Source of the DNA: Candidatus Reidiella endopervernicosa
Lineage (GTDB): Bacteria; Pseudomonadota; Gammaproteobacteria; GCF-013343005
Assembly (NCBI RefSeq): GCF_013343005.1
Contig: NZ_CP054491.1
Location: forward strand, 1-64,000
Length of the DNA: 64,000 bases
Direction of reading: 5' to 3'
In this document: positions 3,269 to 7,025 of the stretch, piece after piece
Position numbering within the stretch: the stretch's first letter is position 1
How the letters are laid out: the number at the start of each line of letters is the position of its first letter
Position numbers and translations under genes: made by a program
Notes under the pieces: generated by a model
Databases searched by the model: none
What the model was told of the DNA's origin: nothing
What the model saw: the letters and a program-made list of their open reading frames with translations, nothing else

Positions 3269-4183
3269 CTACGGCTGTGAGTAGGCCAGCGCTGCATCGG
3301 CACTCCAATCCATCCCCGCCTCGCCGTACCAGTAGCCGTTGCAGGGAGTACCGATAATCACTCTGTTGACCTGCTCTGCACCCTCAGTAGGATTCAGTTT
3401 CCCATCACGCACGGCCGCAAATGCCTCAACGATTTTTCCCATGTGGTGTGACTGGGGTGAGAGTCGCGCCACATCGACCCCCATCTTCTGCATCTGCGGT
3501 AACGCCTCAATCAGGTTGGTGGTCGCTGCCGAGAGGGTCTGGATACCGTTCATGGAGAGGAACGGTTCACCATCCTGAGTCTTGAGCAGCATACCGTCGG
3601 GGTAGTCGCCACAGCGGAACTGGCAATCATCCTTGGGCAGTTTGTGGGCACGCGCGGTAAAGCAGCGGGCCGAGAAGGCGAGCGGGGTACGACCGAAGGC
3701 GAAGACCTCAGTCTGTAGACCCTCAGGGCGCTGTGCCTGCATCTCGGTGAGCGTGGTGTGCGAGAGCTCAACCGGCATCACCCAACGCTGCGCACCGAGA
3801 TCACGGTGCAGCGCCAGGGTCTCGCCGTTGTAAACATTAAGGTGAGGACCGGCAACGTAGGGGATGTTGTTGGAGGCGAGATGAACCGCTGCCATGTCAT
3901 TGGCCTCAACCAGAAACTTTCCATTATCGATAATGCGTCGCAGGCTCTTCAGCTCCGAATCGGCCTCAAGCAGCACCAGCGTGGAGAGCACCACCTCTTT
4001 ACCGGCAGCGCTCAGCTTCTCTCCAATCTCGAGCCAATCATCGAGTCGCAGCAGGCGACGTTTCGAGCAGACCGCCTCACCGAGATAGACGATATCGAGC
4101 GGCCACTCAACAACCTGTTCATAAAACTCCAAGGTCTCTTCACGCGACCAGTAGTAGAGGTTTGGACCCAGGGATATTTTCAT
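3269..4183 (-). CDS. ubiV: UbiV, O2-independent ubiquinone hydroxylation protein (U32 family)
   Basis: The 304-residue U32-family protein is close in length to E. coli UbiV. In E. coli, UbiV pairs with UbiU as 4Fe-4S proteins that hydroxylate the ubiquinone ring without oxygen. Cys39, Cys174, Cys187 and Cys191 reproduce the spacing of the known UbiV cluster ligands (C39, then C-x12-C-x3-C). The start MKISLGPNLYYW is typical. It follows ubiU on the same strand after about 200 bp, which supports a UbiUV pair. The accessory factor UbiT is not in this window. Confidence 0.93.
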   Translation of the reverse strand: MKISLGPNLYYWSREETLEFYEQVVEWPLDIVYLGEAVCSKRRLLRLDDWLEIGEKLSAAGKEVVLSTLVLLEADSELKSLRRIIDNGKFLVEANDMAAVHLASNNIPYVAGPHLNVYNGETLALHRDLGAQRWVMPVELSHTTLTEMQAQRPEGLQTEVFAFGRTPLAFSARCFTARAHKLPKDDCQFRCGDYPDGMLLKTQDGEPFLSMNGIQTLSAATTNLIEALPQMQKMGVDVARLSPQSHHMGKIVEAFAAVRDGKLNPTEGAEQVNRVIIGTPCNGYWYGEAGMDWSADAALAYSQP

Positions 4184-4382
4184 TTCAACAGTCTCATTAA
4201 CTCATGCAGTTTTAACAGTGAGAGGTTTTTCCGAAGAGAAGGCAGAGTGCACTTTGAGAAGCGGACGACTGCATGGATGCAGGAGGTAGAGCAATGCATG
4301 GAGCAATTGCCGAATTAATCACATCATCAATACGCATCGCAAAAAAGCGCTATAACGTTCTATTCGAATAAAAGATCCGCTG

Positions 4383-5390
4383 TTATTGCCAGCCCCTTTC
4401 TAAAGCGCCTAGCGTATGGGTCGAGCCCTCTGCCACCTTGTCGAGCTGCGCCACCCACTCGGCGCGCGGCACAAAACCGTCGGGATTGATGGTGGCACTA
4501 TTGATCGCCTGACGCAGCACCCTGGTCACCTGCCCCACATAGGCGGGGCTGCGCTGCCGCCCCTCAACCTTGATCGCCTTCACGCCACTGCGCTGCAGCT
4601 CGGGCAGGATATCGAGAATGCTCAGGCTGGTCGGCTCTTCGATCGCATAACCGACCTCGCCGTTGACCTCAAAGCGCCCCTTGCAGACCACCGGATACCC
4701 GGCACTCTCGCCAGGGCCGTAGATATCGATCAGCACCTCATTGAGGCGCACCTTGCGACCATCGGCCGCCTCCTCCCAACGCACCGATTTGGCAGGCGAA
4801 CAGGCACCGCAGGTGTTGGGTGATTCACCAGTGGCGTAAGAGGAGAGATAGCAGCGCCCCTCGACCATCACGCAGAGGCTGCCGAAGGCGAACACCTCTA
4901 CCTCGACATCGGTACTCTCCACCACCCGCTTCACCTGCGAGAGTGAGAGCACACGCGGAAGCACCACGCGCTGGATATTGAAGTTCTCACGATAGAAGGC
5001 GATCGCCTCGGCACTGGTCGCCGATCCCTGCACCGAGAGGTGCAGACGCAGATCGGGGTGAGTGCGTGCCGCGTAGCGCATCAACCCCGCGTCGGCGAGG
5101 ATCAGCGCATCGACACCGATGCGGGCGGCACGATCAACGGCGGCGGTCCAGATCTCCCAGCTCTGCGGCTGCGGATAGGTGTTGAGCGCCAGCAGCACCT
5201 TGCGACCACGACTATGGGCATACTCGATCCCCTTCAGTGCACTACGCTCATCGAAATTGAGACCGGGAAAGTTGCGCGCATTGGTCGCATCGCGAAAGCC
5301 CATGTAGACGGTATCAGCACCGTTATCGACCGCCTGTTTCAGCGCCGACAGGCTGCCCGCCGGGCAGACCAGTTCAAGTTTCTGTGACAT
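4383..5390 (-). CDS. ubiU: UbiU, O2-independent ubiquinone hydroxylation protein (U32 family)
   Basis: The 335-residue peptidase-U32-like protein is the partner of UbiV. Cys173, Cys180, Cys197 and Cys236 sit exactly four residues after the four cluster ligands known for E. coli UbiU, and the U32 signature lies around residues 165-197 (EVFAFGSLCVMVEGRCYLSSY). The N terminus LELVCPAGSLSALKQAVDNGAD is characteristic. The gene starts next to the end of yhcC and forms a leftward cluster with two radical SAM genes. Anaerobic expression is likely because of the FNR-type box at 7012-7025. Confidence 0.93.
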   Translation of the reverse strand: MSQKLELVCPAGSLSALKQAVDNGADTVYMGFRDATNARNFPGLNFDERSALKGIEYAHSRGRKVLLALNTYPQPQSWEIWTAAVDRAARIGVDALILADAGLMRYAARTHPDLRLHLSVQGSATSAEAIAFYRENFNIQRVVLPRVLSLSQVKRVVESTDVEVEVFAFGSLCVMVEGRCYLSSYATGESPNTCGACSPAKSVRWEEAADGRKVRLNEVLIDIYGPGESAGYPVVCKGRFEVNGEVGYAIEEPTSLSILDILPELQRSGVKAIKVEGRQRSPAYVGQVTRVLRQAINSATINPDGFVPRAEWVAQLDKVAEGSTHTLGALERGWQ

Positions 5391-6323
5391 TTAGAGAAAA
5401 CCCTCTTGCGCGCCAAGATACCCCTGCGAGGTGCCTCGTCGTGATAGTTCATCTTCGATACCGTTGAGCACCCGCCACTTCCAGTTACACCAGTAGGGGG
5501 TGAGCAGAATATCGGTTGAAGCGGTGCCGGTAAGGCGATGGTAGAGCACCTCTGATGGGGTGGCCTCGACCAAATCGGCCGCCATACGAATATATTCTTC
5601 GACCGTGAGCGGCGCATAGTCACCGCGACGCCACTCATTGGCGAGCATCGTCCCCTTCACCACATGCAGCGGGTGAAGCTTTAGCCCCTCGACACCCAGC
5701 TCCAACACCCGCTGTAACGACAGTTGAAGATGGGCGGCATCCTCGCCCGGCAGGCCCGCGATCAGATGCGCGCAGACCGGCAGTTCACGGGCATGGGCCG
5801 CCTGTAGCGCCTCACGATACTCGGCAAAACCGTGGCCGCGATTGACCCGCTCAAGGGTGTGATCGAAGGCCGACTGCAGCCCCAGCTCCAGCCATATCTC
5901 ATAACCCTGATCACGATAGTCGGCGAGCAGGTCGAGCACCCTGGGCGGCACGCAGTCGGGACGGGTGCCGATCGAGAGGCCGATTACATCGGGCTCGGCA
6001 AGCGCCGCATCGTAGAGCTGTTTCAGATTGGCCGGATCGTCGTAGGTGTTGGTATAAGCCTGGAAGTAGGCAAGAAACTTCTTCGCCCCAGTGCGTTTGG
6101 CCAGCACCTGACGGCCCGCTTCGATCTGTCCAGCGACCGGATCGGGCTCGCGCGCATTGGGCGAAAAGGAGCTGTTGTTGCAGAAGGTACAACCACCCCG
6201 CCCCTTGCTTCCATCGCGATTGGGACAGGTGAAACCGGCATTGATTGCCAGCTTGTGCACACGTTCGCCATGCTTCTTTAATAGATGCTGACCAAAGGTG
6301 GAGACGTAATCAGAGAGTGCCAC
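5391..6323 (-). CDS. yhcC: YhcC-type radical SAM protein (TIGR01212 family)
   Basis: The 310-residue radical SAM enzyme has cluster cysteines Cys33, Cys45 and Cys48 (CPN...GGCTFC), the wide first spacing typical of the YhcC family. Strands continuing the barrel are recognisable (GLSIGTRPDCV, WLELGLQSAFD, HLIAGLPGED). The exact reaction of YhcC is not known. The gene overlaps the stop of the upstream radical SAM gene by one base and adjoins ubiU, which indicates translation from one messenger. Confidence 0.9.
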   Translation of the reverse strand: MALSDYVSTFGQHLLKKHGERVHKLAINAGFTCPNRDGSKGRGGCTFCNNSSFSPNAREPDPVAGQIEAGRQVLAKRTGAKKFLAYFQAYTNTYDDPANLKQLYDAALAEPDVIGLSIGTRPDCVPPRVLDLLADYRDQGYEIWLELGLQSAFDHTLERVNRGHGFAEYREALQAAHARELPVCAHLIAGLPGEDAAHLQLSLQRVLELGVEGLKLHPLHVVKGTMLANEWRRGDYAPLTVEEYIRMAADLVEATPSEVLYHRLTGTASTDILLTPYWCNWKWRVLNGIEDELSRRGTSQGYLGAQEGFL

Positions 6324-6955
6324 TAACCAACCTCGTCGAGCACCCGACGCCGAAAGGCGACGCCGATTTCAGCAGCGATCTTTTCACAGGCGTCGATATC
6401 AACACCCTCCAATCCATCGATGGCGGTAAGCGTCACACTCGGAACATAGGCCTTCGCCTTGCGGGCAAAATCGAGCATCGCCTCAAAACCACCCTCGCAC
6501 TTGGGGCGACAGTGTCGGTCGTAGAGCTCACTGTTGTGTGCGTTCATTGAGATCGAGAGCGCATCGACCTTGCCCGCCAACTCCGGGGCAACATCACGCC
6601 CATGAATCAGTGAGGCGAGCCCATCGGTGTTAACCCGAATCGTCGCGCCTTGCGCCTTGAGTTGTTCGGCCACCTCTAGCAGCACATCGAGCCGTGTAGT
6701 CGGTTCACCGAGCCCACAGAAGACGATCTGTTTGTAACGATCCGGATCACCCACCTCCTCAACCACCTTCTCGGCTGATGGCTCCTCGAACAGGCGCAGA
6801 TCGAAACCCTGCACCTCCCAGCTGCCGTTAAATTTGGGGCAGAAGGCACAGCGCAGGGTGCAGTGGTAGGTGATATTGAGATAGCAGTTACCGTGCAGCT
6901 CGTAGCTGATGGTTGGATTCACTGCTGGGTCGTGTTCGGTCTGCTCTGCGCTCAT
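6323..6955 (-). CDS. TatD-associated radical SAM protein
   Basis: The 210-residue radical SAM protein has CTLRCAFC at residues 32-39 (CxxxCxxC for the 4Fe-4S cluster) and FCGLGEPTTR as the SAM-binding glycine motif. It matches the short radical SAM family usually found near TatD-type hydrolases; no tatD gene is visible here. It is the first gene after the FNR-type box at 7012-7025, and a -10-like CATAGA lies near 6984-6989. It is probably the promoter-proximal gene of the cluster running to ubiV. Its substrate is unknown. Confidence 0.85.
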   Translation of the reverse strand: MSAEQTEHDPAVNPTISYELHGNCYLNITYHCTLRCAFCPKFNGSWEVQGFDLRLFEEPSAEKVVEEVGDPDRYKQIVFCGLGEPTTRLDVLLEVAEQLKAQGATIRVNTDGLASLIHGRDVAPELAGKVDALSISMNAHNSELYDRHCRPKCEGGFEAMLDFARKAKAYVPSVTLTAIDGLEGVDIDACEKIAAEIGVAFRRRVLDEVG

Positions 6956-7011
6956 ATCTCTATTTCGTTCTACGGAGCCACGAGTCTATGCAAGAGTGCG
7001 GCCTCGTTATG

Positions 7012-7025
7012 TTGATTTAAATCAA
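7012..7025 (-). promoter_or_regulatory. FNR/DNR-type binding site upstream of the radical SAM-ubiUV cluster
   Basis: TTGATTTAAATCAA is a perfect dyad matching the FNR consensus TTGAT-N4-ATCAA. It ends 57 nt before the ATG at 6955. On the minus strand a CATAGA -10-like hexamer is centred roughly 30 nt downstream, the geometry of a class II FNR-activated promoter. Fumarate/nitrate- or NO-responsive CRP family members share this box, so which regulator acts is inferred. Confidence 0.8.

Follow-up and report, generated by a model that had tools for sequence, protein, structure and literature searches.

In Escherichia coli, control of the ubiUV genes by FNR is already known: Fnr activates ubiUV, and the UbiU and UbiV proteins together with UbiT restore ubiquinone (UQ) in hydroxylase mutants (PMC10470549). 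An FNR ChIP-seq study of this organism assigned both yhbUV (= ubiUV) and yhcC to Category 1, among 32 directly activated operons (PMC3688515). The yhcC gene of E. coli is located beside arcB, apart from ubiUV. In Bacillus subtilis, the MnmL/YtqA protein works with the methyltransferase MnmM. This methyltransferase has been described (PMC9976899), MnmL is listed alongside MnmC for nm5s2U34, with Jaroch 2024 given as the source (PMC12548931), and MnmC(o) converts cmnm5U into nm5U (PMC3936742). A literature search yielded no published description of a yhcC-ubiU operon, and found yhcC neither together with ubiU nor together with radical SAM.

The window analysed here, a stretch of 64,000 nucleotides from contig NZ_CP054491.1 of Candidatus Reidiella endopervernicosa, contains four genes that are read leftward from an FNR box in the order TIGR04038 radical SAM gene, yhcC, ubiU and ubiV, each of them scoring above the respective curated cut-off (Table 1). 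A previous reading of this DNA, made from the sequence only, had described four tight genes, which is slightly overstated because ubiV comes after a 199-bp gap; the first three genes do overlap or abut, with the start of yhcC overlapping the stop of the TIGR04038 gene by 1 nt and the ATG of ubiU abutting the stop of yhcC. The spacer between ubiU and ubiV contained no FNR-like site, even when 2 mismatches were allowed. The cluster cysteines of UbiU and UbiV, which the same reading had called complete, were recovered in alignments with the E. coli proteins (4 of 4 in each): C173/C180/C197/C236 of UbiU correspond to E. coli 169/176/193/232 and C39/C174/C187/C191 of UbiV to E. coli 39/180/193/197, at 55% and 42% identity, respectively. 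Additionally, the genome encodes a UbiT homolog, an SCP2 protein of UbiT size at position 3431069 with 41% identity over 88 amino acids to E. coli UbiT, which is located about 19 kb from the operon, provided that the chromosome is circular.

Table 1. Features of the ubiUV locus and its surroundings in the window.
Feature	Position	Strand	Remarks
ubiV, NF047965	3269-4183	-	415 bits (cut-off 275)
ubiU-ubiV spacer	4184-4382	-	199 bp; read from sequence
ubiU, NF047963	4383-5390	-	541 bits (cut-off 440)
yhcC, TIGR01212 (MnmL/YtqA) radical SAM	5391-6323	-	365 bits (cut-off 180); Radical_SAM_C domain PF16199
TIGR04038 small radical SAM gene (TatD-associated)	6323-6955	-	242 bits (cut-off 129.7)
CATAGA, -10-like hexamer	6985-6990	-	read from sequence; 31 bp centre to centre from FNR box
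FNR box TTGATTTAAATCAA	7012-7025	.	perfect palindrome, 10/10 to TTGATN4ATCAA
Genes for hemerythrin, DUF2249 and presumed NnrS-like membrane protein	7037-9015	-	neighbours outside operon

The first gene of the operon specifies a protein with a CX3CX2C motif at C32/C36/C39 that is invariant in the aligned set A2, and its structural model (pLDDT 92) is nearest to the folds of PFL-activase, NifB, TYW1, viperin, QueE and MoaA. The TIGR04038 family owes its name to TatD adjacency, which is external to the model itself; in the window, no TatD nuclease gene is present beside the TIGR04038 gene, the neighbours being yhcC and a membrane protein gene without a Pfam or NCBIfam match that we take to be NnrS-like. 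Genes for hemerythrin, DUF2249 and NnrS-like proteins are recurrent neighbours of the cluster in relatives. At TIGR04038 loci away from ubiU, clustering of the flanking reading frames, mostly shadow frames, provided no common partner.

The perfect FNR box noticed in the previous reading turned out to be the sole 10/10 match to TTGATN4ATCAA in a pattern search of the whole window, and it is located in an intergenic gap of 81 bp (6956-7036), 56 nt from the first ATG. In a class II arrangement the site is centred near -41.5, which is about 32 bp upstream of the centre of the -10 hexamer; the spacing in the window agrees with this class, the start position being predicted. The placement of CATAGA at the class II distance has its counterpart in the relatives, in which the -10-like hexamers peaked at 32 bp from the box centres (set of 34), with 0 of 2000 shuffles equalling this peak. 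A box of at least 9/10 preceded 35 of the 59 scored units, that of the window included, whereas the background for a near-perfect box in random segments was 4.4% (binomial 4e-31). Standalone yhcC genes of enterics (E. coli included), Aeromonas and Shewanella also have an FNR-like site upstream; it lies at -64 to -75, matches at 8/10 (7/10 in one case) and keeps the 32-bp spacing.

Gene-neighbour statistics were based on 369 genomes of the class, representing about 34 families. The ubiU gene was detected in 92 of them, and 62 of the 63 genomes with yhcC also have ubiU (Fisher 4e-46), while 30 of the 92 ubiU genomes are devoid of yhcC. The two genes lie within 3 kb of each other in 52 pairs; in 48 of these, yhcC immediately precedes ubiU in the same orientation. 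The proximity is also kept where the genes diverge, where yhcC comes behind ubiV and where another gene is inserted. The neighbourhood with ubiUV that had been proposed as a check thus exists for yhcC; the TIGR04038 gene is linked to ubiU as well, but more weakly, and is found directly before ubiU at loci where yhcC is elsewhere. Among NrdD-positive genomes, yhcC is present in 16 of 25 with ubiU versus 0 of 9 without ubiU, so that the tie is tighter than a generally anaerobic lifestyle alone predicts, and this lifestyle was rejected as the sole cause of the linkage, with the small numbers of this comparison in mind. The genes, the box, its geometry and the linkage are direct results of sequence analysis or statistics. 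Because of the co-occurrence, the upstream boxes, the class II -10 peak and the E. coli ChIP-seq data, FNR co-regulation of yhcC with ubiUV is well supported, and the operon driven by the FNR box, as predicted from the sequence, stands on its linkage, the class II boxes and the E. coli FNR data on the homologs. Operon and FNR control thereby withstand the refutation test that the previous reading had set.

Both radical SAM genes had been regarded as being of unknown role, which no longer applies to yhcC, since NCBIfam now names its family MnmL/YtqA, a family of enzymes modifying the wobble uridine of tRNA. The equivalog model TIGR01212 spans the proteins of E. coli, B. subtilis and the type found in the window, with E. 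coli YhcC scoring 473 bits and five relatives also above the cut-off. The closest solved relatives of YhcC are Elp3 structures, and Elp3 also works at C5 of U34. The NCBIfam naming and one review suggest that YhcC may be an MnmL protein.

The locus is probably an anoxia-induced FNR operon that combines ubiquinone synthesis by UbiUV with an MnmL-type YhcC acting on tRNA and with a second radical SAM protein. Leftward transcription would start at about 6977-6978 from a class II promoter, with an FNR dimer bound at 7012-7025 and the -10 hexamer at about 6985-6990. By analogy with the E. coli literature, which supplies the chemistry of UbiUV as well as the activation of both ubiUV and yhcC by FNR, UbiU-UbiV and the UbiT protein encoded elsewhere would perform the O2-free hydroxylation of ubiquinone precursors. 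We infer that YhcC acts on tRNA in these bacteria and that this action depends on anoxia: the enzyme would strip cmnm5(s2)U34 of its carboxymethyl group, yielding nm5(s2)U34, the job of the flavoenzyme MnmC(o) in other Proteobacteria. The co-expression would then reflect two O2-independent routes whose products are needed simultaneously, and the promoter would also have captured, in the TIGR04038 protein, a second radical SAM enzyme that is sensitive to O2.

MnmC(o) and MnmC(m) are both absent from the genome to which the window belongs. In E. coli mnmC mutants, a shift from cmnm5s2U to (m)nm5s2U was observed in dense rich-medium cultures, for which the authors favoured the ammonium pathway (PMC3936742); the shift also fits an MnmC-independent enzyme that is induced at low O2. 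E. coli without MnmC(o) keeps cmnm5s2U at any density in minimal medium (PMC3936742), and therefore the medium matters too. In the genome sample, yhcC and MnmC are anticorrelated, occurring together in 3 genomes versus 13.7 expected (p 1.6e-4). Mutual exclusion as proof that yhcC replaces MnmC(o) was nevertheless dropped, because ubiU is anticorrelated with MnmC just as strongly and, within the ubiU genomes, there is no difference by yhcC.

The joint anaerobic pathway suggested for the radical SAM genes is retained at the level of co-regulation, whereas a role in ubiquinone synthesis is unlikely. In such a role YhcC, and perhaps the TIGR04038 protein, would serve O2-independent synthesis as maturase, activator or extra ring-modifying enzyme with UbiUV, and it is slightly less likely still that both proteins are unrecognised functional partners of UbiUV. 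The tie of yhcC to ubiU, seen in nearly every genome with yhcC and in shared operons and persisting among NrdD-positive genomes, and the TIGR04038 genes located directly before ubiU where yhcC is off-locus would be explained in this way. However, YhcC does not occur in all and only the genomes with O2-independent ubiquinone synthesis, as indicated by the 30 ubiU genomes without it and by the presence of TIGR01212 in the control genomes of B. subtilis, Thermotoga and Methanocaldococcus, organisms well known to be without ubiquinone. The position of E. coli yhcC next to arcB instead of ubiUV also argues against this role, as does the recovery of UQ by UbiUV and UbiT in hydroxylase mutants, though these strains retain yhcC (PMC10470549).

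A more credible, though still doubtful, alternative is that regulation is all the genes share: unrelated anaerobic genes would have been inherited or transferred together under one FNR promoter, with YhcC using a substrate other than cmnm5U. The FNR-like sites of standalone yhcC genes and the recurring hemerythrin, DUF2249 and NnrS-like genes are in line with this explanation, and PF05430, the known MnmC-type methyltransferase that uses nm5U, is absent from the window genome; yet the yhcC-ubiU order is kept in about 34 families, the proximity survives other arrangements, and one equivalog covers the proteins of E. coli, B. subtilis and this group. That box and operon are a product of chance or inactive in this genome, for example for want of a working FNR, is most improbable. 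The homolog nearest to E. coli Fnr does carry an in-frame TAA stop codon, but an intact paralog with four cysteines and the recognition helix VETISR is encoded adjacently, the genome contains 14 exact FNR sites in 3.45 Mb versus 0 for the reversed control pattern, and the geometry of box and -10 hexamer is conserved in relatives.

If the preferred reading of an operon for ubiquinone synthesis and tRNA modification is correct, anoxia would change the wobble-base chemistry of tRNA as well as respiration and quinone chemistry: acting through the same regulator, it would replace a flavoenzyme by a radical SAM enzyme. A concrete reaction would then be available for the FNR target YhcC of E. coli, and the change from cmnm5s2U to nm5s2U that mnmC mutants show with growth phase could be read differently. 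The pairing of yhcC with ubiUV, apparently under FNR, is found again in dozens of bacterial families, from which a readily testable role of YhcC in anaerobiosis follows. Should YhcC and the TIGR04038 protein instead be partners of UbiUV, a fuller gene set for O2-independent ubiquinone synthesis would result for sulfur-oxidising and denitrifying Proteobacteria.

Compared with the E. coli ubiUV (yhbUV) operon, the locus has the same cluster cysteines, an upstream FNR site in class II-like placement and a UbiT homolog in the genome, but ubiU is preceded by two radical SAM genes that share its box, and ubiT, divergent and adjacent to ubiUV in E. coli, is distant. E. coli yhcC likewise belongs to TIGR01212, and its FNR-like site lies at -75, 32 bp from a -10-like hexamer; it is a standalone gene, however, whereas yhcC is joined to ubiUV in the window and in the majority of the yhcC genomes sampled from the class. 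MnmL/YtqA of B. subtilis belongs to the same NCBIfam equivalog and is linked to nm5s2U34 formation (PMC12548931); B. subtilis is without UbiUV, and the window genome without an MnmC-type methyltransferase. The MnmC(o) flavin oxidoreductase, an unrelated FAD enzyme that the window genome lacks, catalyses the same conversion of cmnm5U to nm5U that is proposed for YhcC.

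A search of one set of 369 genomes of the class with the profiles TIGR04038, UbiU and TIGR01212 (YhcC) revealed a strong linkage between yhcC and ubiU, which bears out the gene neighbourhood proposed by the sequence-only reading. The ubiU gene was found in 62 of the 63 genomes carrying yhcC and in 92 genomes in total (Fisher 4e-46; n = 369), and since sister genomes are non-independent samples, this and the following P-value express the strength of a pattern and not a number of origins. The two genes are less than 3 kb apart in 52 of the 62 shared genomes, spread over 34 families, and in 48 genomes yhcC directly precedes ubiU in the same orientation, no more than 187 bp away; several of the unlinked cases lie at contig ends. 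Among 60 regions that were read, most show the order [rSAM]-yhcC-ubiU-ubiV and a ubiT gene close by; where loci are rearranged, the genes still remain together. Among 80 sampled yhcC loci of named taxa, the linked form occurs in Chromatiaceae, Thiobacillus, Hydrogenophilus, Sedimenticola, Acidithiobacillus and Nitrosomonadales, and the unlinked form in Enterobacterales, Aeromonas, Shewanella and Grimontia.

The link to the TIGR04038 radical SAM gene was upheld in part only. This gene shares 36 of its 55 genomes with ubiU, being within 5 kb in 16 of them and mostly placed before yhcC or directly before ubiU, but 19 of the 55 genomes are devoid of ubiU, and the protein is thus not dedicated to ubiquinone. 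Its confident predicted model (pLDDT 92) resembles the small radical SAM cores of PFL-activase, NifB, TYW1, viperin, QueE and MoaA, a predicted likeness that does not fix the substrate.

All four proteins of the predicted operon score far above the curated family cut-offs, and UbiU and UbiV each keep their four cluster cysteines, the completeness of which was noticed earlier. The description as four tight genes holds for the first three, which are contiguous (a 1-nt overlap, then abutting codons), whereas ubiV follows after a further 199 bp. A repeat of approximately 280 bp (blocks 93-100% identical) was also observed, with one copy inside an LhgO/Mqo-like FAD oxidoreductase gene, the halves of which are separate frames, and the other just past ubiV. 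The genes encoding a hemerythrin, a DUF2249 protein and a membrane protein, which we take to be NnrS-like, are repeatedly found beside yhcC/ubiU in many relatives, and this recurrence suggests a wider nitrogen-oxide or anoxia neighbourhood.

Features of the operon region and related loci
Feature	Position	Strand	Remark
LhgO/Mqo-like gene, halves	582-1145; 1261-2202
Repeat, copies 1 and 2	994-1273; 2887-3167
TIGR04038 gene (210 aa), yhcC (TIGR01212), ubiU, ubiV	6955 to 3269	minus	family profile matches
FNR-type palindrome	7012-7025		TTGATTTAAATCAA; 81-bp gap before next upstream gene
Hemerythrin, DUF2249, membrane protein genes	7037-9015
Fnr homologues, tandem	genome 196051-196767; 196867-197559
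UbiT homologue	genome 3431069		41% over 88 aa vs E. coli UbiT
E. coli MG1655 yhcC	3353121-3354050		FNR-like site TTGATCCAGGTCAT, 75 bp before start

The perfect palindrome upstream of the operon proved to be the sole exact match in the 64 kb, and the 3.45-Mb genome contains 14 such palindromes versus none for the reversed control pattern. The -10-like CATAGA indeed lies at class II distance, 31 bp from the box centre. Among 59 scored units, including that of the window and four yhcC genes away from ubiU, 35 carry a box with at least nine of ten matches within 300 bp upstream, compared with 4.4% of segments drawn at random from these loci (binomial 4e-31). TATAAT-like hexamers peak exactly 32 bp from the aligned boxes (2.7 of 6 matches on average, a level reached by 0 of 2000 shuffles, for which the maximum was 1.86 +/- 0.09), a spacing that corresponds to the predicted class II arrangement. 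No box with nine or more matches was found in 26 upstream regions of unlinked yhcC genes; the FNR-like sites of standalone yhcC genes, including that of E. coli, are weaker (8/10, in one case 7/10) and lie at -64 to -75, again with a hexamer spacing of 32 bp. The arcB gene of the anoxic redox sensor is located directly downstream of E. coli yhcC. Of the two Fnr homologues, the first, nearer to E. coli Fnr, contains a single in-frame TAA, and the second has an open frame with four conserved cysteines. A search of this genome for the anaerobic ribonucleotide reductase NrdD gave no hit.

The assignment of YhcC to the same anaerobic ubiquinone pathway is considered unlikely, because the TIGR01212 family occurs in control genomes of organisms without ubiquinone and yhcC is missing from one third of the ubiU genomes. 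For the same reasons, the function of YhcC is taken as tRNA modification, and the shared promoter would be explained by anoxia. Scores of no less than double the TIGR01212 cut-off were obtained for the YhcC of the window, that of E. coli and diverse relatives, and the NCBIfam equivalog including YhcC is now named MnmL/YtqA. The closest solved relatives are Elp3 proteins, which act on the wobble-uridine C5. A review places MnmL alongside MnmC for nm5s2U34 (PMC12548931). The MnmC(o) domain, responsible for the step from cmnm5U to nm5U, is a flavin oxidoreductase (PMC3936742), and its turnover probably depends on O2. Neither MnmC(o) nor an MnmC(m)-type methyltransferase was found in the window genome, so that YhcC would be the sole candidate there for this step. 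An anticorrelation of yhcC and MnmC was set aside as support, as it is not specific.

In E. coli, O2-independent hydroxylation by UbiUV is established (PMC6747719, PMC10470549) and ubiUV activation by Fnr was dissected through mutation (PMC10470549). Both yhbUV (ubiUV) and yhcC are among 32 operons that combine an FNR ChIP-seq peak with an FNR-dependent increase under anaerobic conditions (PMC3688515). Dense rich-medium cultures of E. coli without MnmC show decreased cmnm5s2U and increased nm5s2U, which the authors attributed to the ammonium branch of MnmEG (PMC3936742); this density-linked shift also fits a tRNA-modifying YhcC, and FNR-induced YhcC is another possible cause.
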